Assembly: GCA_021789895.1 (NCBI GenBank)
Contig: JAJYIU010000003.1
Location: 62,001-126,000 of the forward strand
Reading direction: 5' to 3'
From: Acidobacteriota bacterium
Lineage (GTDB): Bacteria; Acidobacteriota; Terriglobia; Terriglobales; SCQP01
DNA: 64,000 nucleotides
How positions within the stretch are numbered: the first letter of the stretch is position 1; each line of letters opens with the position of its first letter. Positions 41,726 through 64,000 of the stretch are shown here, piece by piece. A model generated the notes under the pieces. It worked only from the letters and a program-made list of their open reading frames with translations, ran no database searches and was not told the DNA's origin. The translations under genes were made by a program, and so were the position numbers.

Positions 41726-41737
41726 CGTTTCCTCGCT

Positions 41738-42073
41738 TTAGGCTTTTTCTCCGGCGCCCGGCCAACGGCGGCTGCGCAGGTTGTGAATATGCACGTGGCT
41801 TCCGGCTGGAATATCGGCGGTGGCTTCGCCGATTATTTGCCCGTACTCAATCACGTTTTCCCCGCGGCGCAAGTCGCGCAGCGCGATCTTATGGCCCAGC
41901 GGGATGGCAGTTTTGGCTTTCAAGCTGGACAACGAACTGCCGTTCAACAAGTGGATAGTGATTGGATCACCGGGTTGCAAATCGCGAACCGCCACGCCGA
42001 CACTATCCGGGCCGGCATGAGCCAGGGCGGCCGGAGCGCTCGTTTCCAAGTCGGCCAGTTTGGGGGTGGACAT
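41738..42073 (-). CDS. SAF-domain small subunit of UxaA-type hydro-lyase
   Basis: A 111-residue protein consisting of one SAF domain: DSVGVAVRDLQPGDPI, then a short linker, AKTAIPLGHKIALRDLRRGENVIEYGQIIGEATADIPAGSHVHIHNLRSRRW. The IPLGHKIAL and VHIHNL blocks match the N-terminal domain of UxaA and the SuyA subunit; the His residues there are thought to help bind metal or substrate. It is the first gene of a two-gene operon with the large subunit. A promoter-like TATAAT and a candidate GntR site lie 50-65 nt upstream. Confidence 0.88.
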   Translation of the reverse strand: MSTPKLADLETSAPAALAHAGPDSVGVAVRDLQPGDPITIHLLNGSSLSSLKAKTAIPLGHKIALRDLRRGENVIEYGQIIGEATADIPAGSHVHIHNLRSRRWPGAGEKA

Positions 42074-50200: not shown

Positions 50201-50545
50201 CACATGCTGGGTCGCAGCGCCCAACTGCAAGCGGATGTTCAAGCCCAACTGTTCGCCGGCGTCCAAGCGCACGCCAACGCGGGTGGTGGTCTTAAACCCT
50301 TTGGCATCGACCGAGACCCGATACGTGCCGGCGAGCAGGGCGGGGATCTGGTAATGCCCGTCTGCGTTAGTTACGGCCGGATTGCTGATGCCGGTGCCGA
50401 CATTGACGGCGGCCACCTGCGCACCGGGCACCACGGCGCCGCTGGGATCGGTGACAAAGCCGGAAATGGTTGCTTGCCGTTGGCCATAAAGGCTGAGTGC
50501 TGCGGTCAACAACATGACGGGAGGAAGGAAACGTCCGAATTTCAT
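47258..50545 (-). CDS. TonB-dependent outer-membrane receptor, Oar-like, with carboxypeptidase-regulatory domain
   Basis: A 1095-residue outer-membrane protein. Signal peptide at 1-22 (LPPVMLLTAALSLYGQ). Residues about 25-105 are a carboxypeptidase-regulatory domain (ATISGFVTDPSGAVVPGAQVAAVNVGTG ... GHYQIPALLAGTYRVSVDAKGFKT). The plug domain (about 110-240) has NLAVNGRNFMDLAQLVPGA and FNGAREQAGAWLVDGAENLDLGSRN. The rest is a large barrel ending in an aromatic residue (LQLGAHIAF, C-terminal Phe, typical of barrel assembly). Oar-like receptors take up polymers or oligosaccharides in acidobacteria, often with a binding lipoprotein; no SusD gene is seen here. It has a good sigma-70-type promoter and a GntR-like site upstream. 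Confidence 0.94.
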   Translation of the reverse strand: MKFGRFLPPVMLLTAALSLYGQRQATISGFVTDPSGAVVPGAQVAAVNVGTGISNPAVTNADGHYQIPALLAGTYRVSVDAKGFKTTTRVGVRLDAGEQLGLNIRLQLGAATQHVTVRTTAVNLQTENGTQSYVVYGHDIQNLAVNGRNFMDLAQLVPGAASGPTGFRGIGHFGLGGISFNGAREQAGAWLVDGAENLDLGSRNNLIVSPSEESIKEFSVKTSNYSAVYGSAGGAVINARIRSGSNAYHGSAFEFLRNDALDANYFFLNQAGQPRPKLKLNDYGFTLGGPIKRKKLYFFYSQEWRSYRAPHVFSTHTPSPQELLGDFSAWGAQQKGKKGLNSKVAGVPTGCISGWTIRSTCISPDAQALIQTGIFPAQTLPFTASENNFHNFVTSTVEPEAYHQELARIDYDISSSLKLMLHYIHEGWSQHYSTSLWAGDGFPTVGTHFILPTDSLAIRLTQIVNPKVLNEVDFQFGYKYDKGTPEGTYARPSGFNSPTVFGNNPLNRIPHLSFNDGYTGYDVGEWPYQLNTPEWSVTDMLSQVVGNQTFTYGAYYQYGIKNQPNGGDTQGSFSFNGNWSIKNSQGQLLSTGNPFADFLLGIPSSYSELNQEVMGHWRYHQFEPFFQDDWKVSPALTLNLGLRYQYIPHAYETNNNFMTWLPQLYNPATSYLVNKSGNLYCPAGRTCDYYDGEVQAGSPLIPQLGRSTTHTYYGGFAPRVGFAWRLPGLHDTVLRGGGGVGYYRNQGNDSYSLRSPQTVNVSFSYPTLDNPSGGTAASLAAPNLLALNQFYKPHQYVQYSLGIEHNFGNNTQLRVGYVGSHGSHLPRNVNYNQPGPYTDPNTGQVYDYYPDFKNSTSENPFRPYLGFGNISIESNDAASEYNSLQVWLERRWTHHLSFGVSYTLAHAMSNADGPQNAYNRSAEWARTGRANVLVFHYYYDLPFFRNQHGILGEALGGWRWSGITTFMSGTPFGVGLSGFHGLADRADLSSAGVISYPKSLDMWFAGPFYTPPAGYFGNSGRNILIGPSYQSWNMNFFKSFRLGEHLQLRIEADAFNIFNQPNFNNPNASLGNGSFDQISGTGDPRELQLGAHIAF

Positions 50546-50583
50546 GTTGACTTCTCCACACTCTGGATTTTTCCCAGGTTTCC

Positions 50584-50611
50584 ATTATCCTTAGCAGATG
50601 ACGCATGTCAA
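50584..50611 (-). promoter_or_regulatory. Sigma-70-type promoter of the TonB receptor gene
   Basis: On the minus strand TTGACA (50606-50611), a 16-bp spacer and GATAAT (50584-50589) lie 39-66 nt upstream of the start at 50545. The -35 matches the consensus perfectly and the -10 at five of six positions. It is the clearest promoter in the window. Confidence 0.6.
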
Positions 50612-50621
50612 GAAATATGAG

Positions 50622-50632
50622 ATATCAGATTC
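50622..50632. promoter_or_regulatory. Candidate GntR site upstream of the TonB gene
   Basis: ATATCAGATTC matches ATATCAGATAT at 9 of 11 positions and lies 10 bp upstream of the -35 box, a position that suits activation rather than repression. The remaining 350 nt up to the symporter gene hold no gene or hairpin I can support. Confidence 0.4.
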
Positions 50633-50989
50633 CAGTCAGCGGGCTGATCGCCGGGCGGGAAGATTTGGGGTTCGGTCCTGTTGAAGTCCTGCCGCCGCCT
50701 AAGGCTATGAAAACAATGCCTCTGATATTCAGCTGGGCTGGGGGCAGGATGCAGCCTAAGCAAATGCGCGGCCCGGTTCCGGGTTGCAGCCGGCAACCGG
50801 CTGGCGGCGCCACCGACGCTTCCGGACAGTGCGCATACACTCCACCAACCGCAAGCTGGCGGCCCGGAAGATCCGTGACAAACCGCGGGAATTCAGTTAT
50901 GGTGACGCAAGTCAGCCCGCTGCCGCCAGGGTTCAGGCAACGGCATAAGCAAGCTTTTCCCCGGATCCGCGAACCTTAAGCCAAACGCT

Positions 50990-52471
50990 ATGACGGCCTC
51001 TCACTTTATTCTTCTCGGGCTGGTAATTTACGCCGTTCTAATGCTGGGGTTTTCCTCCTTCTGGATGCGCAAAATCCGCACTCCGGCCGATTACCTGGTC
51101 GGCGGGCGGCATTTTTCTTTCTGGATTCTGGCGGGCACAATTACCGCCGGCTGCATTGGCACCGGCGTGATTGTCGGCGCCTCGGGCTTGGCTTACCGGC
51201 ATGGCTGGGCGGGCAGCGTGTACCCAATCGCCTTGGGGCTGGGCACGGCTTTCACCGGGCTGTCCTTTGCCATGGCGCGGCGCTACAATTTCATGACCTT
51301 AAGCGAGGAGATCACCGCCTATTACGGCGGCAACCGCATCATCGCCGAATTTTCTAATCTCAGCTTGTTTTTCTCGCAGTTGTTCTGGGTGACGGTGCAG
51401 ATTATGGGCGGCGCGGCAGTCATCGCCAGCGTCACCCAACTCCCGCTCTCCACCAGCGTTTTTTTGGCCGGGACCATAGCCGCCGGGGTTACCATCCCCG
51501 GCGGGCTGAAGAGCGTGGTATATACGGATTTCCTACAAGCCTTGATTTTATTGACCGGCTTTAGCCTCTTGAGCTATGAGGCGCTGTTCCATCATGGCGG
51601 CTGGAGCGCGCTGCGCGCTTCGGTACCGCCCGCGTATTTTTCCTTTCTGGGCATTGCTGCCTATGGCGGCTGGCAAGTCGCCGGGCTGTTGGTGGCATTA
51701 ATCCTGGCGGTTGTCGCCGATCCCGGCCGGCGGCTAAGTATGTACAGCGCGAAAAAGGAAAGCTATGCCCGCTGGGCGATGGTGGCCGCGGGCCTCGTCG
51801 TCATCGCCTTTTCTACGCTAATCGGCATCACCGGGATGACCGCCTTCCGGCTCAATCCGCACCTGGCCCGGCCCGATGAAGCGATCCTATGGCTGGTTAT
51901 GCATGCATTGCCGGCCTGGCTGGCGATGCTGGTAGTGGTTTCGATCACTTCCGGGATTATCTCCTGCACCAACGGTACGGCGATGGCGGCGAGCACCTTC
52001 TTTATTCGCCACATCTACCCATTGTTTACGCGCGGGCGCTTTCCCCGGCGGCCGCTGCTAACCGTCCGGCTGGCGCTGGTCGTGCTGTTTTTATTGGCCA
52101 TGACGGTGGCATTGCACGCCGGCACGATTGTCGGGTTTGTGGTGAAATTTCTGCCGCTGACCATGAGTGGGGTGGCGATTATCATCCTGCTGGGCCGATT
52201 CTGGCGGCGCAGCACCTGGCAGGGCGCGCTGGCGGCGCTGCTAGTCACGCCGCTAGTCTCGCTGGCGGGCATGTGGACACCCGGCCACCCGCCCTGGCTC
52301 AGCAACGCCATCACGCCGACCCTCGCCGGCGCCGCTGCGCAGATCGTTGTCAGCCTGCTCACGCCGGCCAAACCGCAAAGCTTCGAGCAGGCTGCGCGGA
52401 TCATCGGCGCGGCGCGGCAGGCGCTGGAAGCCGGCGAGAGCGCCTCGACGGTTCAGGCGGCGGCGCAGTAA
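50990..52471 (+). CDS. Sodium:solute symporter (SSS family)
   Basis: A 493-residue inner-membrane transporter with about thirteen helices, beginning MTASHFILLGLVIYAVLMLGFSSFW. Family pattern: TPADYLVGGRHFSFWILAGTITAGCIGTGVIVGASGLAY (helices 1-2 with the unwound TM1 region), LSEEITAYYGGNRIIAEFS, GGLKSVVYTDFLQALILLTGF (TM6 region, conserved KxxxYTDxxQ), VADPGRRLSMYSAKKE, and SITSGIISCTNGTAMAASTFF. The Ser/Thr residues around TSG-S/CTN likely form the Na2 site. It probably takes up the monosaccharides or disaccharides freed by the GH3, GH92 and GH2 enzymes. It is in a position to share the TonB-gene regulatory region. Confidence 0.93.
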   Translation: MTASHFILLGLVIYAVLMLGFSSFWMRKIRTPADYLVGGRHFSFWILAGTITAGCIGTGVIVGASGLAYRHGWAGSVYPIALGLGTAFTGLSFAMARRYNFMTLSEEITAYYGGNRIIAEFSNLSLFFSQLFWVTVQIMGGAAVIASVTQLPLSTSVFLAGTIAAGVTIPGGLKSVVYTDFLQALILLTGFSLLSYEALFHHGGWSALRASVPPAYFSFLGIAAYGGWQVAGLLVALILAVVADPGRRLSMYSAKKESYARWAMVAAGLVVIAFSTLIGITGMTAFRLNPHLARPDEAILWLVMHALPAWLAMLVVVSITSGIISCTNGTAMAASTFFIRHIYPLFTRGRFPRRPLLTVRLALVVLFLLAMTVALHAGTIVGFVVKFLPLTMSGVAIIILLGRFWRRSTWQGALAALLVTPLVSLAGMWTPGHPPWLSNAITPTLAGAAAQIVVSLLTPAKPQSFEQAARIIGAARQALEAGESASTVQAAAQ

Positions 52472-52502
52472 ACGACCTGCGGCGGACCGGCACGCGTCGG
52501 CT

Positions 52503-53549
52503 TCAGCGCCACGAGGCAAAAGCATCCATTTCCCGGCCGCGTTCAGCGGCAAGACGCTCCAATGCCGGCTGCAGCGCCAACCGCTCGTGGACGATGCCGC
52601 CGACTGCGGCGGCCAGTGCTCGCGGGTCTTCGTGCCGGGCGAAGGTAACGTTGCGGCCGACCATCACCCCGCGCACGTTGGCCCCGGCGCCCATGCCCGC
52701 GGCAAACTCGGCCAGCACCGAGGTTGGATCCTCGCGCGGCGGCCCGCCCAGCATGAGGATGGGCAGCGTGGTGGCGCGCGCCACGCGCTCGTAGCCTTCG
52801 CTGTAAGAGAGCTTGAGGTAGGTATAGGCGGAGGATTCGCCGAGCGCTGCGGCTGCGCCCACATCGCGCACCAGAGCCTCCACGCTCTTCACCGTTTCAT
52901 AGCCGCCATCGGCCTTGCGGCGCACGCTCATCGGCTCGAGAAAGGCATATAGATTTCGGCGATATAAATCGGTAATGGCTTGAGCGCAGTCGCTGATGGC
53001 CTGAATAGAAAGCGAATCGGCGGGGTCCAGGCGATACATCAATTTGCCGCCGTCAAAATTCAGCCGCCGCAATTGCCGCGCGCTAAAACAGGTGAAGCGA
53101 TCGTCAATTTCGCCCGCCACGCCGGCATGGCCGCCGCGGTTCATGCATCCGACCAGCACCTTGTCGTCCAACAACGACGGCCCGCCGGCTTCGCGCACCA
53201 GGGCATTGACGATCAGCACGTCTTCCATGAAATCGGTGGTGCCCATGATGCCGTCGCAGCCGGGCGAGAGCAGTACGCGCAAGGCGCGGGCAAGATAGCT
53301 GTGACGATCCCCCATGCCCAGAGGCTCGCCTTCCAGCGCCGTCACCCGGCGTCCGGGATGGTCGGTGGCCAGGATCACCAGCCGGCCGTCCAGCGTCAGG
53401 CGAGCGCGCCGGCGCCGGCGTTGCGCTTCGGCCAGGATCGTCTCCGGCCGCGTTACACGCACCTCGGTGATCGCTTCGAACAGTTTTTGCGGCAGGTAAT
53501 CCGCAGGATGGAACGTAGATTGTTTTGCGCTGCTGGCATGTGAACTCAT
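52503..53549 (-). CDS. Class I aldolase, DhnA/Cgl0159-like
   Basis: A 348-residue cytoplasmic Schiff-base aldolase of the DhnA/class I family. Blocks: LTLDGRLVILATDHPGRRV (barrel start, conserved DHPG), SPGCDGIMGTTDFMEDVL, LDDKVLVGCMNRGGHAGV, NFDGGKLMYRLDP, EPMSVRRKADGGYET and, with the likely Schiff-base lysine, AYTYLKLSYSEGYERVARATTLPILMLGGPP, then GANVRGVMVGRNVTF. Similar proteins occur in inositol-catabolic and sugar-kinase loci. It lies 23 nt after the phosphofructokinase gene on the same strand, so kinase and aldolase form an operon: substrate phosphate would be cleaved to triose-phosphate and a carbonyl product. Confidence 0.82.
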   Translation of the reverse strand: MSSHASSAKQSTFHPADYLPQKLFEAITEVRVTRPETILAEAQRRRRRARLTLDGRLVILATDHPGRRVTALEGEPLGMGDRHSYLARALRVLLSPGCDGIMGTTDFMEDVLIVNALVREAGGPSLLDDKVLVGCMNRGGHAGVAGEIDDRFTCFSARQLRRLNFDGGKLMYRLDPADSLSIQAISDCAQAITDLYRRNLYAFLEPMSVRRKADGGYETVKSVEALVRDVGAAAALGESSAYTYLKLSYSEGYERVARATTLPILMLGGPPREDPTSVLAEFAAGMGAGANVRGVMVGRNVTFARHEDPRALAAAVGGIVHERLALQPALERLAAERGREMDAFASWR

Positions 53550-53572
53550 GGCGTTTCCTCAAGCATAAAAAG

Positions 53573-54775
53573 TTAATCCGCCGAAGCAGTGGCGGAGATG
53601 CGCGCATACTGCGCGAGCGGGCCGCCGATCAGCGGCAGGACATACTCGCGGTAGCCGTCGCGGATGCCATTGCCCTGTTCGCTGAGAAATTCCCCGGGCA
53701 AGACCCGGGTTTGGTTGGCAACGCGATCGAGCGGCACTGCCTCATAACCAACCTCATAGGGAGACTGGCTGAGCCGGCGGATGGCGGTCATGAACCCGCT
53801 GTGTCCCTTTAGCGCCCAATCCACGGCAAAGGCGCCGGCGGCTTCGGCTTCGCAATGATCGACAGGGGAGCATAGCGCCATCGAAGCGCGGCCCAGCAAT
53901 CCGGGTTTTTCACTGCGGGCGCGAAGCCCCAACTCCCGGGTGACCAGTTCGGCCAGATTGGTAGCGACGTCCCCGGGCAAAGGATGGCCAAAACCATCGG
54001 TGGCGCCCTGCGCCCGGCAGAGCCCCCAATTCCGGCCCTGTTCATCCACTGCGCCTTCGGAAACTGCCGCTACCGCCCAGCCATAGCGGTCGAAAGCGGT
54101 CTGGACATCATCGAGGAAGCGCTGGCGGGCCAGCGGGCGCTCGGGGACATAAATCAGGTGCGGGGCGTCGCCGTCATGCTGGCGGGCCAGCAGCGTTGCT
54201 GCCGTCAGCCAGCCGGCGTTGCGGCCCATCACTTCCAGAATGGAAACCGGCGTCGGCAGGCTGCCGACGTCCATGCCCAAATCTCGCGCGGCCTGCGCTA
54301 TAAACCGCGCGGCGGAGCCAAAGCCGGGGCAATGATCGGTGACCGGCAGATCATTATCAATGGTCTTGGGAATGCCCCCGCACGCCAGCGCATAGCCGAG
54401 CGCGTCTGCCGCCTGGTGCATCTTCAGTGCGGTATCCATCGAATCGTTGCCACCGATGTAGAAGAAATAGCGCACCCCGTGCTCGCGCAAGGCCTCGACC
54501 GCGGCTTGCGCTTCCTCAGCAGTGAGCATCTTGCGGCACGAGCCCAGAGCGGCTCCCGGCGAATGAACGATCGCATTCCAGTGCGCCGGGCTCAATCCGC
54601 GCAAATCCGCATATTGGCCGCGCAGCACGCCCAAAATGCCTTGCTGTGCTCCCCACACCCGGCTGTGGGGAGCCAATCCGGCCAAGGCCCGTTGCACCGC
54701 CCCATACAGGCTGGCGTTGATGACCGGGGTGGGGCCGCCTCCTTGCGCAATGACGAAATTTCCGGTAGAAGACAT
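53573..54775 (-). CDS. 6-phosphofructokinase family kinase, PPi-type signature
   Basis: A 400-residue cytoplasmic sugar-phosphate kinase. Sequence blocks: AQGGGPTPVINASLYGAV (12-30), YIGGNDSMDTALKMH (107-120), CGGIPKTIDNDLPVTDHCPGFGSAARFI (132-159), EVMGRNAGWLTAATLLA. The ATP/PPi discriminating motif is GGND (108-111), with an Asp where ATP enzymes have Gly; together with PKTIDND this favours pyrophosphate as phosphoryl donor. The middle and C-terminal domains (DVATNLAELVTRELGLRARSEKPGLLGRAS) match the long PFK group. First gene of an operon with the class I aldolase. The substrate may be fructose 6-phosphate or a related ketose phosphate. Confidence 0.9.
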   Translation of the reverse strand: MSSTGNFVIAQGGGPTPVINASLYGAVQRALAGLAPHSRVWGAQQGILGVLRGQYADLRGLSPAHWNAIVHSPGAALGSCRKMLTAEEAQAAVEALREHGVRYFFYIGGNDSMDTALKMHQAADALGYALACGGIPKTIDNDLPVTDHCPGFGSAARFIAQAARDLGMDVGSLPTPVSILEVMGRNAGWLTAATLLARQHDGDAPHLIYVPERPLARQRFLDDVQTAFDRYGWAVAAVSEGAVDEQGRNWGLCRAQGATDGFGHPLPGDVATNLAELVTRELGLRARSEKPGLLGRASMALCSPVDHCEAEAAGAFAVDWALKGHSGFMTAIRRLSQSPYEVGYEAVPLDRVANQTRVLPGEFLSEQGNGIRDGYREYVLPLIGGPLAQYARISATASAD

Positions 54776-54827
54776 AGGGATAAACTATAAAGCTTCGCGC
54801 CGCTCTTCAACCATGATCCGTACTAGA

Positions 54828-54838
54828 ATATCAGATAC
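54828..54838. promoter_or_regulatory. Candidate GntR site between PFK and GH92 genes
   Basis: ATATCAGATAC matches the palindrome ATATCAGATAT at 10 of 11 positions. It lies 53 nt before the PFK start (minus strand) and 43 nt before the GH92 start (plus strand), so it could control both divergent operons. Confidence 0.5.
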
Positions 54839-54880
54839 CAGAAACAACATCCCGGCAATCATCGCCTAGGAGCCATTCAC

Positions 54881-57232
54881 ATGAGCCTAATCATCCAAGC
54901 GAACTTCTCCCGGCCCATGCCATTTTGGCGCGCTGCACTGATGACGTGCTGGATTCTGCTGCTGATTACGCTGAAAAGCCCGGCTCAGCGCCCGGGAGCC
55001 GCGCCCGCTTTGCACTGGGTCAACGTCTTCGCCGGGACCGCGCCCACTCCCAAGGGACGGTTTGGCAAGTTCGGTAATGGCGGCGATGTTTTTCCCGGCG
55101 CAACCACCCCCTTCGGCATGGTCCAGTTCAGTCCCGATACGGACACCCCCATGCCCGGCGGCTACTTTTATCCCGACCACCGCATCACCGGATTCAGCCT
55201 GGATCACTACAGCGGCCGCGGCTGCATGTACGAAGAGGATATCGGTTTTCTTCCGGTCCCCCATGGCCCTCCGTTCGCGGCGTTTCCAGACCGCATTTCA
55301 GCCCGCTTCGCGCATCGCGATGAGCGGGCCAATCCCGGCTTTTACCGGGTCCGCTTGCGGAACGGCCTGGTAGTCAGGCTCACGGCAGCCCCGCGCGCCG
55401 GCGTGGCGGCCTTCACCTTTCCCGGCATTCGCGGCAGCATCCTGATCAACCTCGGCCATAGCGCCCGCGGCACGCAGGCTTCCGGCTTGCGTTTCATCAG
55501 CCAACGCGAAATCGCCGGCTGGGCGCAGACGCAGATCGGCTGCGGCAAACCCGGTTACCGCGTTTATTTCGACGCAGTCTTCAATCGCGCACCGGCGCCC
55601 TTTGGTGTCTGGCAAAACGGCAAATTGCAGCCCGGCGGACGGCAGGCGGCGGGGCCCGGCGCCGGCGCCTATCTCAGCTTTCCTTCCTCCGGAGCGCGGA
55701 CTACGGTTTTGATGAAGGTTGGGCTTTCCTACGTCAGCCTGGCCAATGCCCGCCTGAACCGCCGGACAGAATGTCCCGGCTGGGATTTTGCGGCGCTCCG
55801 CCGCCGCGCGGAACGGCGCTGGGACCGGGCGCTGGGCCGCATCGCGGTGCTGGGCGGAAGTAATCGCGGAAAGCGCATCTTTTACACCGCCTTCTATCAC
55901 ACCCTGCTGGAACCCAATCTTTTCAGCGACGCCAATGGCCAGTATCCGGGTTTCGACGGGCGCATCCACCGGCTGCCACCGGGGCACCGGCAGTACGACA
56001 ACATCTCCGGCTGGGATTTTTACCGCTCGCAGGCGCCGCTGCTTGGGTTTTTCTTTCCCGCGGTGGCTTCGGATATCGCGCAATCATTAGTGAACGACGC
56101 CGAACAAGACCCGGGCGGCGGCATCCCGCGCTGGGAACAGATCAATCACAACTCCAATGGCATGGTCGGGGATGGCAACCTGCCGCTGATCGCCAACCTG
56201 TTCGCCTTCGGCGGCCGCCGCTTCGATCGCCCTGCCGCGCTCCAGGCGATGTTGCGCAACGCGCTTAAGCCTGCCACCCGCTCAGATGGGCATCCCGTGC
56301 GGCCACATTTGAAAAGCTATCTGCGCCTCGGCTGGGTTCCGGCCGGCCGTATGCGCACTAGCGCGTCGGCCACGCTGGAGTACGCCAATGCGGATTTCGC
56401 CGCCGCGCAATTCTCGCTGAAATTAGGCGACCGCCGCGACGCGATCATCTTGCTGCGCCACTCCCGCTACTGGCGGCATCTCTTCAACCCCCATACGCGC
56501 TACCTGCAGCCCCGCGAGGCCGACGGCAGTTGGCCGCCGGAAGCGCCGGCCAGCGGTCACGGCTGGTCGGAAGGTTCGAGTGCGCAATATACCTGGATGG
56601 TGCCGTATGATTTGCCCGGCCTGATTGCGCGCCTGGGGGGGGCTAAGGCGGCTGCCCGGCGCCTGGACACCTTTTTCGAGCAACTCAATTCCGGCGCTCA
56701 CAGCCGCCACTATTTCCACGGCAACGAGCCGGGCGAGTCCTCTCCCTGGATTTACGACTTTCTCGATCGGCCATGGGAGACGCAGCGCCTCGTCCGCCGC
56801 ATTCAAACCACGCTGTGGCAGGATAGCCCGCAGGGCCTGCCCGGCAACGATGATGGCGGGGCGATGTCGAGTTGGTATGTTTTCTCGGCGCTGGGCCTCT
56901 ACCCGGAAATCCCCGGGGTCGGCGGATTCGTCATCGGCAGCCCGATGTTTCCCAAGGTCACGCTGCGCCTGGCCCACCGCCGCATCTGGACCATCAGCGG
57001 CACAGGCGCCGGCCCGACGGCGCCCTACGTGCGATCACTGAAAATTAATGGGCGCGCCAGCGCATCGCTCTGGCTGCCGCTCTCCGCCGCTCTGAAGCAC
57101 CGGCGGCTGGCGCTGCGCTTCCAACTGGCATCACAACCGGATCGCGCCTGGGGCGCGGCTAAAGCCGACCGGCCACCGTCATTTTTTCCGCCTTTCCGAA
57201 CGGGCACGGCGGCCAGCACTGCGCCCCGCTAG
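54881..57232 (+). CDS. Glycoside hydrolase family 92 alpha-mannosidase
   Basis: A 783-residue exported Ca2+-dependent exo-alpha-mannosidase. The N-terminus has a hydrophobic leader (about 14-34, FWRAALMTCWILLLITLKSPAQ). GH92 blocks: WVNVFAGTAPTPKGRFGKFGNGGDVFPGATTPFGMVQFSPDT, SLDHYSGRGC, then NISGWDFYRSQAPLLGFFFP and WEQINHNSNGMVGDGNLPLIANLFAFG. The catalytic-region HGWSEGSSAQYTWMVPYDLPGLI is followed by HGNEPGESSPWIYDFLDRPWETQRLVR and GLPGNDDGGAMSSWYVFSALGLYPEIPG. The Glu and Asp residues of these blocks are the expected acid/base and water activators. A GntR-like site lies just upstream. It heads an operon with GH2, 20 nt downstream. Confidence 0.95.
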   Translation: MSLIIQANFSRPMPFWRAALMTCWILLLITLKSPAQRPGAAPALHWVNVFAGTAPTPKGRFGKFGNGGDVFPGATTPFGMVQFSPDTDTPMPGGYFYPDHRITGFSLDHYSGRGCMYEEDIGFLPVPHGPPFAAFPDRISARFAHRDERANPGFYRVRLRNGLVVRLTAAPRAGVAAFTFPGIRGSILINLGHSARGTQASGLRFISQREIAGWAQTQIGCGKPGYRVYFDAVFNRAPAPFGVWQNGKLQPGGRQAAGPGAGAYLSFPSSGARTTVLMKVGLSYVSLANARLNRRTECPGWDFAALRRRAERRWDRALGRIAVLGGSNRGKRIFYTAFYHTLLEPNLFSDANGQYPGFDGRIHRLPPGHRQYDNISGWDFYRSQAPLLGFFFPAVASDIAQSLVNDAEQDPGGGIPRWEQINHNSNGMVGDGNLPLIANLFAFGGRRFDRPAALQAMLRNALKPATRSDGHPVRPHLKSYLRLGWVPAGRMRTSASATLEYANADFAAAQFSLKLGDRRDAIILLRHSRYWRHLFNPHTRYLQPREADGSWPPEAPASGHGWSEGSSAQYTWMVPYDLPGLIARLGGAKAAARRLDTFFEQLNSGAHSRHYFHGNEPGESSPWIYDFLDRPWETQRLVRRIQTTLWQDSPQGLPGNDDGGAMSSWYVFSALGLYPEIPGVGGFVIGSPMFPKVTLRLAHRRIWTISGTGAGPTAPYVRSLKINGRASASLWLPLSAALKHRRLALRFQLASQPDRAWGAAKADRPPSFFPPFRTGTAASTAPR

Positions 57233-57252
57233 CCACCAGCCGCCTACGCATT

Positions 57253-59640
57253 ATGCCCAACCCTACCGTCCCAGCGTTCTCGCGCCGCGGCTTTCTTGCA
57301 TCCGCCGCCGGCGCCGCCATCGCTGCCGGATCCGCGCTGCCCGGCTGGTCTTTTCCCTCCGAACGCAACTCTTTCAATTTTGCATTGGCCAGCATCGAAT
57401 TGAATGACGGATGGCGGTTCGGCGGGCCGTTGCGCAACCGCGCCGCGCTGGACCCGGACTTTGACGACTCGGAATTTCAGCGCGTCAGCTTGCCGCATTG
57501 CGTTAGCCGTTTATCCTGGCAACGCTGGCAGCCGAAAAGCTGGGAGCGCGTTTGGATCTACCGGCGGCGCTTTGCGCTACCTCCTGCATTGCGCCATGGC
57601 CGATTGCTTTTGCACTTTGACGGCGTGATGACTGGCGTCACGCCGGTCATCAATGGCCGTGTGCTTGAAAAACATCTCGGCGGATATTTGCCTGTCCAAT
57701 ATGAAATTACCCGCCTGCTGGTGAAAGATGAAAATTTGCTGGCGCTGTTGCTCGATGCGCGCTGGAGCAATACCCCGCCCGAGGGTTCCTCCCGGGGGCC
57801 GCGTTCGATCGACTATCTAGAACCGGGCGGACTTGTGCGCCCGGTCCGTCTCCTGGCGGTACCCGAAATTTTCATTCGCGAAGTGTTTGCCAAACCCCAA
57901 CGGGTGCTCGATGCGGACCGGAGCCTGGAATTGCAATGCAGTTTGAACGCAGGTACCGCCGCCCCTCGTCCGCTGCGGCTGGTGGCCCGCTTGTTGCGGA
58001 ATGAACGCGAGCTGGCGCGCACCGATTGTGCGCTCAAAATCGAGCGCCCGGGCGAACATGTCTTCCAGCTTCAGTTCGATCGCCTCGGCGAGCTGCGTCT
58101 CTGGTCGGTGGATGCGCCCCACCTGTACCATCTTGAGGTCGCGCTTCTGGACCGAGGGGGCCGCGCCTTCCAGCGATACCGAACCCGCATCGGATTTCGC
58201 GATACCCGTTTCGAGGTGGACGGCTTTTTCTTGAACGGCAGCCGACTGCGCTTGTTTGGCTTGGACCGGCACGAGCTCTACCCGTATGTCGGATTCGCGA
58301 TGCCGCCGCGGGTGTTGCGCCGCGATGCCCAGATCCTTCGCCGCCAGTTGCACTGCAATTTCGTACGCTGCTCGCATTACCCGCAATCGCCGTCCTTTCT
58401 CGACGCCTGTGATGAGTTGGGGCTGATGGTTTGGGAAGAGCTGCCGGGTTGGCAATACCTTGGCGACGACGCCTGGAAAGAGCGCGCGGTGCGGGATGTG
58501 GGGGCAATGGTACGGCGCGACCGCAACCGCCCCTCGGTGGTGATCTGGGGGGTCCGGATCAACGAGTCCGCCAACGATCCCGCGCTCTATCGCCGCACGC
58601 GCGCGCTGGCTTATGAACTGGATGGCACCCGCCCCACTTCCGGCACCATGACGCGCCGCTCAACCCAAAATTGGTATCAGGATGTTTTCGCCTTTGACGA
58701 CTACCATGCCAATCCCGACGGCAGCGTCAACATTGCGCCGCCCTTGCCGGGCGTGCCTTATATGCTGGCGGAAGCGGTGGGGCAGTTCAACTACCGCGCG
58801 GGGCGCGGCTTCGATAGCGTTTACCGGCGTGGCGGCGATGCCTGGCTGGAGCGGCAACAGGCGTTGCGGCATGCGCAGGCGCACAACAACGGCGCCGCCC
58901 ATCCCCGCCTCAGCGGCGTCGTCGCCTGGTGCGCCTTCGACTACGGCAGCCTGATCAACTCCTACCAGGGAGTGAAATGCCCGGGCGTCGCCGACATCTT
59001 CCGTATCCCCAAACTGGGAGCTGCGTTCTATCTAACGCAGGGTGATCCGCGCCGGCGGCCGGTCATTGAACCGAATTTCTACTGGGATTTCACCGCCGGC
59101 CCGCCGCTGCGCCCGGGCGAGCCGGCCGCGATCTTTTCCAATTGCGACCGTCTGGAACTGTATTTGGACGGCCGCCATGCCTTCACGCTCGCGCCCGACC
59201 GCGCGCAATTTCCGCATCTCCGGCATCCACCCTTTTTCGTCCGCCTCGAGTTGCGGCCGGAGGCGCGTCCGGAGCTGCGCATAGACGGCTTTACCGGCGG
59301 CCGGCGCGTCTTGTCGCGCTCCTTTTCCGCCGACACCACGCAGGATCGGTTGGTTGTATTCGCCGATGACCGCGAGCTGGCCGGCGACGGCTCGGATGCC
59401 ACCCGGCTGGCGTTTTTTGCCGCCGATAAATTCGGTGCGCTGCGGCCTTCCGCAGGCGGTGAAATCCGGCTGCGGATCGAAGGGCCGGGAGAAATCGTGG
59501 GCGACAATCCGTTTTCGCTGGCCGAAAATGGCGCCGGCGCAGTCTGGATCCGCGCCGCGGCACAAGGCGCGGGAACCGTCCGTGTCGTCGCCTCGCATTC
59601 CCGGCTGGGCGAGCGCGCAGTCTGCATTCAAGTCAAGTGA
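57253..59640 (+). CDS. Tat-exported glycoside hydrolase family 2 (beta-galactosidase/mannosidase type)
   Basis: A 795-residue enzyme with a Tat leader (SRRGFLASAAGAAIAAGSALPGW). GH2 domain order: sugar-binding jelly roll (about 45-200; SLPHCVSRLSWQRWQPKSWERVWIYRRRFAL, LLLHFDGVMTGVTPVINGRVLEKHLGGYLPVQYEIT), Ig-like domain (about 205-315), and TIM barrel (about 320-610) with FFLNGSRLRLFGLDRHELYPYVG and CNFVRCSHYPQSPSFLDACDELGLMVWEELPGW. The acid/base is in SVVIWGVRINESAND (Asn-Glu) and the probable nucleophile Glu in VPYMLAEAVGQFNY. A C-terminal beta-sandwich region follows. The nucleophile segment differs from the usual TE(Y/F)G, so specificity is open. Same operon as GH92. Confidence 0.9.
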   Translation: MPNPTVPAFSRRGFLASAAGAAIAAGSALPGWSFPSERNSFNFALASIELNDGWRFGGPLRNRAALDPDFDDSEFQRVSLPHCVSRLSWQRWQPKSWERVWIYRRRFALPPALRHGRLLLHFDGVMTGVTPVINGRVLEKHLGGYLPVQYEITRLLVKDENLLALLLDARWSNTPPEGSSRGPRSIDYLEPGGLVRPVRLLAVPEIFIREVFAKPQRVLDADRSLELQCSLNAGTAAPRPLRLVARLLRNERELARTDCALKIERPGEHVFQLQFDRLGELRLWSVDAPHLYHLEVALLDRGGRAFQRYRTRIGFRDTRFEVDGFFLNGSRLRLFGLDRHELYPYVGFAMPPRVLRRDAQILRRQLHCNFVRCSHYPQSPSFLDACDELGLMVWEELPGWQYLGDDAWKERAVRDVGAMVRRDRNRPSVVIWGVRINESANDPALYRRTRALAYELDGTRPTSGTMTRRSTQNWYQDVFAFDDYHANPDGSVNIAPPLPGVPYMLAEAVGQFNYRAGRGFDSVYRRGGDAWLERQQALRHAQAHNNGAAHPRLSGVVAWCAFDYGSLINSYQGVKCPGVADIFRIPKLGAAFYLTQGDPRRRPVIEPNFYWDFTAGPPLRPGEPAAIFSNCDRLELYLDGRHAFTLAPDRAQFPHLRHPPFFVRLELRPEARPELRIDGFTGGRRVLSRSFSADTTQDRLVVFADDRELAGDGSDATRLAFFAADKFGALRPSAGGEIRLRIEGPGEIVGDNPFSLAENGAGAVWIRAAAQGAGTVRVVASHSRLGERAVCIQVK

Positions 59641-59668
59641 AATGCAGTTGCAACCCGCTGCTTTTCGA

Positions 59669-60613
59669 TTACCCGTGCGGCTTGCGCCTGCCGGCCCGCA
59701 TGGCCTTCGCTCGATTGGCAATTTCGCGCTCGATCCAACCGTCGCCGGCGCCGGCCGGAACGTCGCGCCATAGGCCCCAGCGCTCACGATGCGTCACCGC
59801 CTTTCCGGGCGCCAGATTGCCGAGCGGCCCCAGGCTCTCCAGCTCCAGCATCTGCGGATTGGTATAGACCTCGTAATGGCAGCCGAAATCGGGATATTCG
59901 GCTGCGGGTTGCGCTGGACCGGCCTGCTTGATGAAAAGATGCCCGCGGCGGTAATACGCCAGCCAGGCGCCGGCGTGGTGAATGCCTATTTTTTGCCAGG
60001 GATAATTCGTGCGCGGCCGGGTCAACTGCCGCAGGCTAAGATACTGTTGGCCGCGCACCCAACGCCGGTCGCTGAGATCGGTGTATGGCCAGATTATCAG
60101 GCTGCCGTTCGGCAGAAAATTTTTTGCTCCCCAGGGAGCCCGCGGCGGCAGCGGCAAAATAGCCGTTCCGCCGGGCGCCATCACGGAAATCGCCCAGGGC
60201 GCGAGGCGCAGCGCCCGCCGGCCCAGGTTGGCAATGCGATAGTTCACCTCCACGCCCGCTTCCGCCAGGCGCAGACGGATTTCCTTTTGCAGCCGCACGC
60301 CATCCGGCCAGGTTTCCGGCGGCGCCAGAAAGCTCACCATATCGCCGTTCCGCCGCATCTCGACCGGGGCGTGGTCGGGAAAATACGTGCGGGAGGTTTC
60401 GGGTGCGATCCACAAGCGGCCGCCGCCGAAATTAGCCCATTTTCTGCCGGCCGCGGCCAACTGCTCCGGATAAACTTTGAATTCGTTTTCGTCGTTGTAA
60501 AAGCCAAACGCGATCACCCGCGGCCCCAGCCCGGTTAACACCTTCAACTCGACGATGCCATTGGATAGACGGACTGCGCGATGCCCATGGAATTCGACCG
60601 ATTCGATGTCCAT
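59669..60613 (-). CDS. DUF4380-like protein
   Basis: A 314-residue protein beginning MDIESVEFHGHRAVRLSNGIVELKVLTGLGPRVIAFGFYNDENEF, a pattern of the DUF4380-like group with a galactose-mutarotase-like beta-sandwich fold: WIAPETSRTYFPDHAPVEM, VRLQKEIRLRLAEAGVEVNYRIANLGRRALRLAPWAISVMAPGGTAILPLPP, and GCHYEVYTNPQMLELESLGPLGNLAPGKAVTHRERWGLW near the end. The last block resembles the catalytic region of mutarotase-type folds. ATG 60613 is preferred to upstream in-frame starts, which have no conserved content. It is convergent with GH2 and divergent from the GMC operon. Function unknown; sugar binding or epimerisation is plausible. Confidence 0.78.
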   Translation of the reverse strand: MDIESVEFHGHRAVRLSNGIVELKVLTGLGPRVIAFGFYNDENEFKVYPEQLAAAGRKWANFGGGRLWIAPETSRTYFPDHAPVEMRRNGDMVSFLAPPETWPDGVRLQKEIRLRLAEAGVEVNYRIANLGRRALRLAPWAISVMAPGGTAILPLPPRAPWGAKNFLPNGSLIIWPYTDLSDRRWVRGQQYLSLRQLTRPRTNYPWQKIGIHHAGAWLAYYRRGHLFIKQAGPAQPAAEYPDFGCHYEVYTNPQMLELESLGPLGNLAPGKAVTHRERWGLWRDVPAGAGDGWIEREIANRAKAMRAGRRKPHG

Positions 60614-60764
60614 AACGGTACAGCATACGCGCAACCCGGGCGTGATGCGAGGTGGAACTGTTAAGCGGCCGTTTTTAGGCGGGGTCAATTCGTGCGATGA
60701 TGCGCCGAAGCCGCCTCTGGGCGCATTCAGAGATCGCCAGGGCGCGTCAAAGGATTCAAGCCGC

Positions 60765-62384
60765 ATGGCAACCAGGGAATATGACGTCTGCATAATCGGT
60801 TCAGGCGCAGCCGGCGGGGTGATGGCCAAAGAATTGTGCGAAGGCGGGGCCAAGGTGCTGATGCTGGAAGCGGGACAGCGGGTCGCTCCGGCGCAGTTTT
60901 TATCGCATACCTGGCCCTATAGCCTTCCCTACCGCGGCCTGCGCGGGGAAAAGCAGGCCCTGTTTTACCCGCCGGATATTGCCCGCGTGCGCTACGAATC
61001 GAGCGATCCGGTGAGCGTGGACCGCATTCGGGTGCTGGGCGGGCGGACGTTGCATTGGAACGCGGTGACGCTGCGCTATGCGGCGCGAGATTTTCAACCT
61101 TACTCCGCCGAAGGCATCGATGAAGACTGGCCGCTGAGCTACGCCGAAATGGAGCCTTATTACGATCGCATCGAGCAAACCATCGGCGTTTGCGGGCAGG
61201 ACGATCATCTGGAAATTTTGCCTGCAGGGCGGCATTATCTGCCGGCGATTCCCTGGCGCTGCAGCGAACATCTGCTGCACCGGGCGACCCGCTCGATGGG
61301 GATCCCGTTGATTGCGGTGCGCAAGGCGGTGTTGACCCGGCCTTACGATAACCGCCCGCCTTGCCATTATTGCGGCCATTGCATGACCGGCTGCGACGCC
61401 GAAGCGATTTTCACCTCGCCCGACTGCATGCTGCCCAAAGCGCGGGCTACCGGCAACTTCACCCTGCGCCAGAACGCCATCGCGCGCGAGTTGCTGGTGA
61501 ACCGCGAAGGCCGGGTGAGCGGCGTGGCCTGGGTGGACCGCCGGACCAAAAAAGAAGATGTCGCCCGCGCCCGCATCTTCGTGGTCTGCGCCGCCACCGT
61601 GGAATCGGCGCGGCTGCTGCTGAATTCACGCTCGCCGCTCTTTCCCGACGGGCTGGCCAACGGCAACGGCATGGTGGGGCGTTATCTGCATGGGCATTCG
61701 GGCGGCACGTTGTACATCTATTTGAAGGAACTCGAAGGCGTGAAGCCGTTCAATCAGGACGGCGCGACCGACCACGTTTATATCCCGCGCTATAACCAAC
61801 TCTTTGGCCGGCCGGCCTACAGCGGGGGGTGGGGCATCCAGGTGAACTTCGCCTCGTACATGTTTCCCCTTCAGGCGCACCGTATACGCGGCTATGGCGC
61901 GGACTACAAGCGGCAAGTGCGCGCGCTGCAGCCCGGTTTTCTGCACCTGGGCAGCTTCGCCAAAATACTCGCCCGTCCGGAAAATTACGTCGGCGTCGAT
62001 CCCCATCGGACCGACGAATTCGGTATTCCCGTCCCGGTGGTGCATTTTCGCTTTGCCGGCAACGACTATGCGTTATGGCAGGACCTGAAGCGGAGCCTGC
62101 TGGAAATCGCTGGCCATCTGCGCGGCGCGACGGTGTTTCCACAGTTCGGGCGCACGCCGGGAGGCTTTGGCAGCCACGAAGTGGGAACCATTCGGATGGG
62201 GCGGGATCCGAAGACCTCGGTGCTCAATGCCTGGTGCCAGGCGCGGGAAGTGAAGAACCTGTTTGTCACCGACGGCAGTTGCTTCACCAGTTGCAGCGAG
62301 AAAAACCCTACTTTGACGATCATGGCGCTATCATTGCGTGCTGCCGGCTACATCCGGGAGCAGCGCCGGCGGGGGGAATTATGA
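60765..62384 (+). CDS. GMC-family FAD oxidoreductase, large subunit of a sugar dehydrogenase
   Basis: A 539-residue FAD enzyme. Starts MATREYDVCIIGSGAAGGVMAKELCEGGAKVLMLEAG, the FAD Rossmann fold; RVLGGRTLHWNAVTLRY is the second FAD block and CHYCGHCMTGCDAEAIF a cluster-like Cys set. The C-terminal GMC signature is GFGSHEVGTIRMGRDPKTSVLN ... LFVTDGSCFTSCSEKNPTLTIMALSLRAAGY. Its stop overlaps the start of a gluconate-2-dehydrogenase subunit 3 gene (ATGA), so it is the catalytic subunit of a two-subunit periplasmic dehydrogenase exported as a complex on the small subunit's Tat leader. Members oxidise gluconate at C2 or glucosides at C3. The 150-nt gap to the DUF4380-like gene is the divergent promoter region. 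Confidence 0.93.
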   Translation: MATREYDVCIIGSGAAGGVMAKELCEGGAKVLMLEAGQRVAPAQFLSHTWPYSLPYRGLRGEKQALFYPPDIARVRYESSDPVSVDRIRVLGGRTLHWNAVTLRYAARDFQPYSAEGIDEDWPLSYAEMEPYYDRIEQTIGVCGQDDHLEILPAGRHYLPAIPWRCSEHLLHRATRSMGIPLIAVRKAVLTRPYDNRPPCHYCGHCMTGCDAEAIFTSPDCMLPKARATGNFTLRQNAIARELLVNREGRVSGVAWVDRRTKKEDVARARIFVVCAATVESARLLLNSRSPLFPDGLANGNGMVGRYLHGHSGGTLYIYLKELEGVKPFNQDGATDHVYIPRYNQLFGRPAYSGGWGIQVNFASYMFPLQAHRIRGYGADYKRQVRALQPGFLHLGSFAKILARPENYVGVDPHRTDEFGIPVPVVHFRFAGNDYALWQDLKRSLLEIAGHLRGATVFPQFGRTPGGFGSHEVGTIRMGRDPKTSVLNAWCQAREVKNLFVTDGSCFTSCSEKNPTLTIMALSLRAAGYIREQRRRGEL

Positions 62385-63004
62385 GCCCAGAGAAGCCTGG
62401 CAGGCGCGTGCCACGAACACCGGATCGGAAAATGAAGCGGCGAACCGCCGTGAAGATGGTCGCGCTCGGCGCGCTGGCCTCCGGCCCGCTGCTGGCCGGA
62501 CTGCCTGCCGCCCGCGTCGCGGCCGCGGCCGGCGAGGACGGCAGCGGCCGGCTGCATTTTTTCACGCTCGAGGAAAATGCGCTGGCGGACCAGTTGATGG
62601 AGCGGATCATTCCCGCCGACGCGCATTCACCGGGGGCGCATGCGGCGCGCGTCAGCCGTTTTGCCGATTGGATGCTCGCCACCGGCAGCCGCTCCGCCCG
62701 CCGCCAGTGGCGGCAGGGCTTACGGCTCCTGCGGCAGGAAGCGGCGCGCAGCTCGCCGGCGGCGGCGTTGGCCAAGGCGGCCGCGAACGAAGCGCATCCG
62801 CGCACCGCGCTGGAAAAATTCTTCGCCGCCCTCAAATCCATGACCATCAACGGCTATTACACTTCGTCCATCGGCATTCATCAGGATTTGCAATACCAGG
62901 GCAACACCTACCTGGGGTCATTCCCAGGCTGCACGATCCGCCGCCTGGCGCGCATCTCGCAAATCGCGCCGGCGCCCTCTTGCCGCGGAACGGCTGATTC
63001 CTAG
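62381..63004 (+). CDS. Gluconate 2-dehydrogenase subunit 3 family protein, Tat-exported
   Basis: A 207-residue small subunit, the chaperone and export partner of the GMC enzyme. Twin-Arg leader (about 18-48, KRRTAVKMVALGALASGPLLAG) followed by the gluconate_2-dh3 domain: FFTLEENALADQLMERIIPADAHSPGAHAARVSRFADWM and LEKFFAALKSMTINGYYTSSIGIHQDLQYQGNTYLGSFPGC. The ATG overlaps the preceding stop by 4 nt and places the Tat leader normally. In the family this subunit carries the large subunit across the membrane by hitch-hiking. No cytochrome c subunit gene is visible next to it, so electrons must pass to a cytochrome encoded elsewhere. Confidence 0.9.
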   Translation: MSPEKPGRRVPRTPDRKMKRRTAVKMVALGALASGPLLAGLPAARVAAAAGEDGSGRLHFFTLEENALADQLMERIIPADAHSPGAHAARVSRFADWMLATGSRSARRQWRQGLRLLRQEAARSSPAAALAKAAANEAHPRTALEKFFAALKSMTINGYYTSSIGIHQDLQYQGNTYLGSFPGCTIRRLARISQIAPAPSCRGTADS

Positions 63005-63021
63005 GCAAAAAGGAAGCAGGC

Positions 63022-63945
63022 ATGAAATTCAGCGTCAACACCATGGTCTGGACCACTCGCGTGGGCGAGCCGCAGGCGGCGCTGCTGGCGCGCATCCGGG
63101 AATGGGGCTTCGAGGGAGTGGAGTTGTTCCTCTCGCCCGAGGAACCCGCCGATCTGGCCGCCGTGCGCCGGCGGCTCGATGCGCTGGGCCTGGCGCGAAC
63201 TGCCTGCTGCGTGCTGCCGCGCGCAGCCAATCTGGTGGACGCCGACCCCGCGGTACGGGCGCGCGGCAGGGAATTTCTCAAAACTTGCATTGAGCGCAGC
63301 GCGGAGATGGGCGCGACGCTGATCTGTGGACCGATTTATGCGGGCCTGGGAGTGATGACCGGCCGGCGGCGCAACGCGGCGGAATGGCATTGGGCGGTGG
63401 AGGGCCTGGCAAGCGCCGCCGAAGCCGCGCAATCCGCCGGTGTGCAGTTGTGCCTGGAACCGCTCAATCGCTTTGAAACTTATTTCTTGAATACATTGGC
63501 CGATGCGGCGCGCCTGGTCCAGGCGGTGGGCTCGCCGCAGGCGCGTATTCACTTCGATACGTTTCACGCCAACATCGAAGAACGAGACCCGGCCGCCGCA
63601 TTGCGCTCGGCCGCTCCCTGGCTGGGACACGTGCACGCCTCGGAAAACGACCGCGGCACACCGGGCAGCGGCCATGTCGCGTGGCGCTCGATTCTCGGCG
63701 TGCTGCACGAGATCGGTTATGGCGGCTGGGTTTGCATCGAATCTTTCGCTCAACCCGAGCCGGAACTGGCGGCGGCCGCGGCCATCTGGCGAGACCTGGC
63801 CGATTCGGGAGACGAGTTGGCGTGCAATGGGCTGCATTTTCTGCAAAACCTGGCGCGCGAAATCGAGGCCACGCCGCAAAACCGTCCCGCGGCGGTTGCT
63901 ATGGGAGCCACGGCAATTCCCGCCGCGCCGCGGCCAAGATCATGA
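63022..63945 (+). CDS. Sugar phosphate isomerase/epimerase, D-tagatose 3-epimerase-like
   Basis: A 307-residue TIM-barrel enzyme of the AP-endonuclease-2/xylose-isomerase-like superfamily. Motifs match ketose 3-epimerases: FSVNTMVWTTRVGE at the N-terminus, catalytic/metal Glu in LCLEPLNRFETYFLNTL, IHFDTFHANIEERDP (metal His-Asp region), GHVHASENDRGTPGSGHVAW, and the second catalytic Glu in WVCIESF. The family also includes 3-keto-glycoside lyases of sugar-oxidation pathways. It lies 17 nt after the subunit-3 gene and its stop overlaps the next ATG (ATGA), so it is part of one operon with the GMC dehydrogenase. Confidence 0.87.
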   Translation: MKFSVNTMVWTTRVGEPQAALLARIREWGFEGVELFLSPEEPADLAAVRRRLDALGLARTACCVLPRAANLVDADPAVRARGREFLKTCIERSAEMGATLICGPIYAGLGVMTGRRRNAAEWHWAVEGLASAAEAAQSAGVQLCLEPLNRFETYFLNTLADAARLVQAVGSPQARIHFDTFHANIEERDPAAALRSAAPWLGHVHASENDRGTPGSGHVAWRSILGVLHEIGYGGWVCIESFAQPEPELAAAAAIWRDLADSGDELACNGLHFLQNLAREIEATPQNRPAAVAMGATAIPAAPRPRS

Positions 63946-64000
63946 CCCGCCCTCTGCATCGCGGCAGGAGAACATTTCTGCAGACCCTGGCTGCGGGCGT
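63942..64000 (+). CDS. Tat-leader protein, 3' truncated by window edge
   Basis: Only 19 codons are inside the window: MTRPLHRGRRTFLQTLAAG, a typical twin-Arg leader (GRRTFLQTLAAG). The ATG overlaps the preceding stop by 4 nt, so it is the next gene in the operon. In similar loci the next gene is often a Gfo/Idh/MocA-type oxidoreductase or a DUF1080 protein with such a leader, but this cannot be known from the visible part. Confidence 0.65.
   Translation, partial: MTRPLHRGRRTFLQTLAAG

Follow-up and report, generated by a model that had tools for sequence, protein, structure and literature searches.

Conservation of a four-gene cassette at the window edge

What do a flavoprotein dehydrogenase, its small subunit, a TIM barrel and an exported protein do together when their genes are kept as a set? 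The question is raised by the 3' end of the 64,000-nucleotide stretch of acidobacterial DNA analysed here (the window; positions 62001-126000 of contig C5 of its genome), where four such genes lie on one strand. The answer that we propose, and judge to be evenly balanced between right and wrong, is that this cassette is a self-contained module for the periplasmic oxidation of a sugar or glycoside followed by reworking of the resulting keto-sugar. Coordinates without an L prefix are window positions. L006 is a 20 kb stretch of the same contig that reads past the window edge, with window position 64000 equal to L006:4000. The four genes are as follows (Tat, twin-arginine translocation):

60765-62384, + strand: GMC flavoprotein dehydrogenase, 539 aa, without signal peptide, ATG to TGA (PF00732, PF05199)
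62381-63004, + strand: Gluconate_2-dh3-type small subunit (subunit 3, SUB3) with a Tat leader (PF13618)
63022-63945, + strand: AP_endonuc_2 TIM barrel of ketose 3-epimerase type, cytosolic, without signal peptide (PF01261)
63942-64000, + strand: 5' end of an FG-GAP/VCBS beta-propeller gene with a Tat leader, ending at window-equivalent position 65219 (L006:3942-5219, 425 aa)

The genes are translationally coupled. The dehydrogenase gene overlaps that of subunit 3 by ATGA (62381), the TIM barrel gene overlaps the propeller gene by ATGA (63942), and 17 nucleotides separate subunit 3 from the TIM barrel. The RR motif of subunit 3, MKRRTAVKMVALG, begins at Met 62432. The original prediction for this DNA had claimed such an operon, including both overlaps, the gap and a Tat-leader gene cut by the window edge, and every element of it was present. 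It had also proposed reading on past the edge, where the open reading frame of the fourth gene ends at L006:5219 and encodes, with an RR leader and FG-GAP repeats, a seven-bladed propeller. This fourth gene is the most interesting part of the cassette.

A scan of the GMC protein against bacterial and archaeal genome contigs gave 77 loci. GMC, SUB3, TIM barrel and propeller stood in the same order beside 8 of the 11 closest GMC orthologues (69-77% identity, complete match), namely at L011, L013, L015, L016, L017, L018, L020 and L021. Other orders were SUB3-GMC-propeller-TIM at L036, GMC-propeller-TIM at L038, TIM-propeller-GMC at L046 and TIM-GMC-SUB3 at L032. Because the same four genes occur together in many acidobacterial contigs, their co-occurrence is not due to chance. 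The flanks were mostly unrelated among loci (efflux permeases, peptidases, an outer membrane efflux protein and others), and when the neighbouring proteins were all clustered, none besides the cassette members was common to more than four loci. That the company is kept in shuffled order amid changing flanks is strong evidence for a single function shared by the four proteins.

The distribution of the cassette is patchy, since close orthologues were absent from the 13 other genomes of the window's family: among the 14 family genomes, no other exceeds 45% for the GMC, 49% for the TIM barrel or about 47% for the propeller. Lateral transfer was considered from base composition and dropped, the G+C content being 64.5% in the cassette and 63.6% in the window.

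Likely C3 oxidation by the GMC dehydrogenase

The FAD motif G12-x-G14-x-x-G17 and the catalytic pair His471 and Asn514 were invariant in the GMC alignment. A four-Cys motif, CxxCxxCxxxC, is kept by the clade of the window GMC and missing from several relatives, and the PF13618 subunit with its Tat leader is retained beside the GMC orthologues as it is here. In a tree of 51 proteins, among which the characterised LacA and GlycDH sequences were not included, the window GMC fell in a 38-row clade with support of 100/99. The same clade holds GMCs from four loci known from plasmid records: Croceicoccus (C-glycoside deglycosidase beta subunit, GH3, Gfo, TIM, SUB3, GMC), Pseudoalteromonas (Gfo, TIM, MFS, 3-keto-disaccharide hydrolase, GMC, SUB3, TIM), Novosphingobium ES2-1 (ThuA, MFS, TIM, SUB3, GMC) and Hymenobacter (GH92, GMC, SUB3). 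At L012, a 72% GMC orthologue has ThuA and a Gfo dehydrogenase just upstream. Judged by this kinship, that is by the clade and the gene neighbourhoods of relatives, oxidation at C3 by the window GMC is likely. The C3-oxidation idea of the original prediction is accordingly favoured on sequence grounds, and the pairing of GMC and small subunit does appear to be of the glucoside 3-dehydrogenase kind that it had named.

The family name of PF13618, gluconate 2-dehydrogenase subunit 3, would instead point to a gluconate 2-dehydrogenase-like complex yielding 2-keto-gluconate. At L079, L082 and L112, where a triheme cytochrome does adjoin the GMC gene, the GMCs form a separate clade, which lies outside the 38-row clade together with fructose dehydrogenase (FDH) and glucose dehydrogenase (GDH), whereas no CxxCH protein of at least 80 aa was found in window positions 50000-64000 or in L006. 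Given the missing triheme cytochrome and the different clade, oxidation of gluconate alone at C2 is disfavoured, and we consider such a complex very improbable here.

A parallel for the first two genes is offered by the Caulobacter LacABC and DUF1080 system for 3'-ketolactose (PMC9007349), which likewise has a periplasmic GMC with subunit 3. In contrast to that system, the cassette locus has a propeller gene and no DUF1080, the only DUF1080 gene of the genome lying on contig C73 beside Gfo genes. Besides GMC and SUB3 the cassette consists of the TIM barrel and the propeller; a third component of LacABC type is not evident, LacB itself not having been compared. The DUF1080-linked GMC has two closer relatives in the genome, on contigs C36 and C19 (47-48% to the L116 protein).

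A second GMC dehydrogenase is encoded in the window at 21114-22784, with about 42% identity to the cassette GMC and 44% to the Croceicoccus protein. It is a member of a three-paralogue group (contigs C5, C19 and C73), and the genome has seven such GMC genes in total.

A TIM barrel resembling ketose 3-epimerases

The closest solved relatives of the TIM barrel were D-tagatose, D-allulose and L-ribulose 3-epimerases (best PDB match 2e-44; Foldseek 5e-22). Its predicted fold (mean pLDDT 81) matched ketose 3-epimerases with a VIA Z of 33 at about 30% identity, and the metal set E146/D179/H205/E240 and the recognition set E152/H182/R211 were all invariant. By sequence, predicted fold and active-site residues, the protein is thus of the ketose 3-epimerase kind. 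It shares with these enzymes the TIM fold and the residues for the metal and for O1-O3 recognition, but differs from them in being coupled to a GMC dehydrogenase and in its low score against the D-psicose 3-epimerase family NF051856, 166.8 bits where the curated cut-off is 300.

The E. coli YcjQRS pathway for 3-keto-gulosides and glucosides also has an AP_endonuc_2 epimerase acting beside a C3 carbonyl, YcjR, which is a 3-keto-glucoside 4-epimerase. The match of YcjR to the TIM barrel was weaker (8e-19, Z 27.6, 29% identity), with Gln in place of Glu152, and the annotated 3-dehydrogenases of that pathway, YcjQ and YcjS, differ from the cassette enzyme in being non-GMC.

The original prediction had left room for a keto-glycoside lyase as well as an epimerase. 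In a scheme modelled on the Rhizobium/Agrobacterium GlycDH-TAT-OGE-HYD-Gfo system (PMC10628242), the GMC would make a 3-keto-glycoside, the TIM barrel would beta-eliminate it, and the propeller would be a sugar-binding helper. The likeness is real in that both systems combine a GMC and a Tat small subunit with a sugar-phosphate-isomerase-like TIM in the operon and with keto-sugar chemistry, and the window GMC clusters with GMCs from such operons. However, the cassette has a single TIM barrel, of ketose 3-epimerase type, and a Tat-exported propeller, and lacks both an OGE-type site and an operon Gfo. In AtOGE the Mn site comprises His132 and the catalytic His134 around beta5, Asp163 and His189 (PMC10628242). 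This His-x-His site was not found in the TIM barrel, in which beta5 ends in E146-P-L, so that Glu146 occupies the position held in AtOGE by the His ligand of beta5 and the catalytic His pair. The TIM barrels of canonical keto-glycoside operons (L115 and L116; Croceicoccus and Pseudoalteromonas) match IolE-type profiles, unlike that of the window, whose NCBIfam match is to the D-psicose/tagatose 3-epimerase type (167 bits) and which, lacking a signal peptide, would be separated from a GMC acting outside. The epimerase half of the claim is therefore favoured, and nothing here supports the TIM barrel as a lyase; the Agrobacterium-like scheme as a whole seems to us improbable.

A plain ketose 3-epimerase would also suit a polyol or free-sugar route, in which the GMC converts a periplasmic polyol or aldose into a ketose, phosphofructokinase and a Cgl0159-like protein bring this ketose into glycolysis, and the propeller binds sugar at the cell surface. 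None of the seven ketose 3-epimerase residues is missing, and genes for phosphofructokinase and a Cgl0159-like protein lie 6-8 kb upstream. These genes, however, are on the other strand and outside the conserved cassette, the clade of the GMC is that of 3-keto contexts, and residue conservation in the propeller (see below) goes past the calcium loops. We regard this route as rather unlikely.

Novosphingobium has the same type of TIM barrel (42%) next to its SUB3 and GMC genes, which ranked first among 1243 plasmid places. Novosphingobium sp. RL4 (L109:13000-27500) carries two GMC clusters a few kb apart, the first with a ketose-3-epimerase-type TIM and ThuA, the second with GMC, an IolE-type TIM, MFS, a hydratase-type TIM and Gfo. 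At L014:5339-6286 and L019:2460-3416, a TIM barrel from a different subfamily, with a Tat leader, takes the place of the cytosolic one, which suggests a fully periplasmic version of the cassette.

Similarity of the exported propeller to aldos-2-ulose dehydratase

A model of the propeller built from 13 sequences (pLDDT 81.5) gave a single-domain, seven-bladed FG-GAP/VCBS fold. Among 350,542 PDB chains, aldos-2-ulose dehydratase (AUDH) of Phanerochaete (4a7k/4a7y/4a7z), which has a seven-bladed VCBS propeller, took ranks 1-3 (E 2.7e-9), with a VIA Z of 28.1 over 341 residues. Searching with the single propeller sequence by phmmer returned weak integrin matches only, and a profile search found AUDH at E 0.0033, which is unconvincing by itself. 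AUDH belongs to the same VCBS superfamily (PMC8023676). The window protein differs from AUDH in being bacterial and Tat-exported, in its low identity (16%) and in forming a single domain of 425 aa to which neither cupin nor lectin domains are attached.

For the comparison of residues we used AUDH residues 1-430, identical to 4a7k by PDB sequence search, and assessed the register with a blade-by-blade Z matrix, the whole-chain score not having settled it. The like-with-like register was the best of the seven (summed Z 27.3 versus at most 22.0), with blades 2 and 6 at 9.7 and 10.1. H232, H298 and H330 of the propeller there meet H215, H295 and H337 of AUDH, in a register that is best and yet not decisive. 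The AUDH crystal structure reportedly has Zn deep in the cleft of the propeller, at its base, with His155 proposed as acid/base. E179, H232, H298, H330, K349, R350 and H354 were kept in 21-23 of 23 relatives (33-50% identity). Conservation exceeds the calcium loops and is therefore more than calcium binding would require, and this invariant set of His, Glu, Lys and Arg looks putatively catalytic.

Gene company of propeller relatives and a proposed mechanism

To see the propeller's company independently, we surveyed 247 acidobacterial genomes without using the GMC; 20 had a good match, and 20 stretches were examined. Gfo adjoins the propeller in L122, L123, L124, L126 and L130, a 3-keto-disaccharide hydrolase in L121, and ThuA with a TIM barrel in L119; SUB3, GMC and TIM barrel lie near it in L127, and TIM and GMC in L123. 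The order in Granulicella tundricola is DUF1080-Gfo-propeller-SDR. Overall, a partner gene was within 3 kb of the propeller in 8 of the 20 loci, compared with an estimated tenth or fewer for random genes, an expectation based on about 40 partner genes in the window's 3.75 Mb genome.

AUDH joins propeller and cupins in one chain, and the fungal enzyme acts after the GMC pyranose 2-oxidase. A cupin-like gene lies on the other side of the propeller in L124 and, by sequence resemblance, in L126. These small Tat-leader genes follow the Gfo-propeller pair (L124:9913-10488, L126:7982-8557), and the propeller-cupin pairs offer a suggestive parallel, as if the AUDH architecture had been split. Tandem genes of the propeller family also occur at L160:8705-11607, in a genome of the window's family.

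Tentatively, and with the balance of probability against it, we propose that this FG-GAP/VCBS family consists of unrecognised exported, metal-dependent keto-sugar beta-eliminases related to AUDH, which would act after a GMC or Gfo-type dehydrogenase and be a third lyase beside the DUF1080 and TIM-barrel enzymes in the glycoside breakdown of Acidobacteriota. Open-access text yielded no literature link of VCBS propellers to 3-keto-glycosides. For the cassette, the genes, their coupling, the retention of the set, the GMC clade and the conserved residues are observed, and from them we infer the substrate, regiochemistry and order of steps as follows. The GMC subunit would fold in the cytoplasm and be exported through Tat with subunit 3 as its presumed escort. 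As family and clade suggest, it would oxidise a hydroxyl group of the sugar ring, with C3 the likeliest position, and electrons would pass from FAD, probably by way of a Cys-bound Fe-S centre, to an acceptor in the membrane whose gene lies elsewhere. The Tat-exported propeller, to go by its fold, residues and gene company, may hold a metal ion by its invariant histidines and carry out an AUDH-like alpha-proton abstraction and beta-elimination, or a related rearrangement, of the keto-sugar. The product would then be imported, and the cytosolic TIM barrel, from its sequence, fold and active site, would epimerise it beside the carbonyl in the manner of ketose 3-epimerases before it enters central metabolism. 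Standard keto-glycoside enzymes are available from other contigs of the genome (Gfo and DUF1080 on C73, ThuA and a hydratase-type TIM on C30, Gfo and TIM on C69).

Several observations weigh against this proposal. FG-GAP propellers are frequently binding proteins, and CRTAC1, LGI1 and integrins come next to AUDH in structure with only slightly lower scores (Z 23-26); hhalign and MAFFT place AUDH one blade off from the best register. Around half of the propeller loci studied have no keto-sugar partner nearby, including that of a second propeller in this genome (L125), whose counterparts in the family (L161-L163) likewise lack one. No Gfo, DUF1080 or transporter gene lies within the cassette, and the close GMC orthologues at L012, L014 and L019 are without the window-type TIM barrel and propeller. 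Nor is the company exclusive to the clade, as the L076 GMC, which lies outside it, also has ThuA, Gfo and TIM nearby.

Oxidative (3-keto) breakdown of sugars is an alternative to hydrolysis that has been recognised only recently. If the cassette works as proposed, it would be a portable Acidobacteriota version with a ketose-3-epimerase-type partner. A true assignment of the propeller would give a testable function to exported proteins now annotated merely as 'VCBS repeat-containing', and would connect a set of bacterial genes with the way in which fungi pair a GMC oxidase with aldos-2-ulose dehydratase.

Genes surrounding the cassette

Two glycoside hydrolase genes precede the cassette:

54881-57232, + strand: GH92-type (alpha-mannosidase family) protein, context only
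57253-59640, + strand: GH2-type protein with a Tat leader, a possible substrate supplier

A GH3 gene lies about 15 kb upstream of the cassette (43228-45561). The GH2, GH3 and GH92 genes that the original prediction had linked to the operon are thus present, but the link to the cassette is weak: L017 alone among the cassettes seen carries, directly upstream, a relative of the window GH2 (59%). No Gfo/Idh/MocA gene was found in the window, and all 11 of the genome sit on other contigs.

Directly past the propeller gene lies a GH27-type gene on the opposite strand, followed further downstream by GH2, a large outer-membrane-receptor-like protein, GH76, GH92 and an aldehyde-dehydrogenase-like gene, the receptor and the last gene being assigned by eye only. 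The GH27, GH2, GH76 and GH92 genes make up an alpha-mannan-like polysaccharide locus beyond the window (L006:5226-16962). Between the GH2 and GMC genes, a divergent gene with a sub-threshold DUF4380 match (59669-60613) has its upstream region in common with the GMC gene and is outside the conserved cassette. The phosphofructokinase and Cgl0159-like genes mentioned above (52503-54775, minus strand) adjoin a sodium:solute symporter gene (50990-52471) and may form a ketose route into glycolysis. Further upstream, at 40556-42073, an altronate/galactarate dehydratase is split into two genes, one for the SAF part and one for the catalytic part, beside a GntR regulator.

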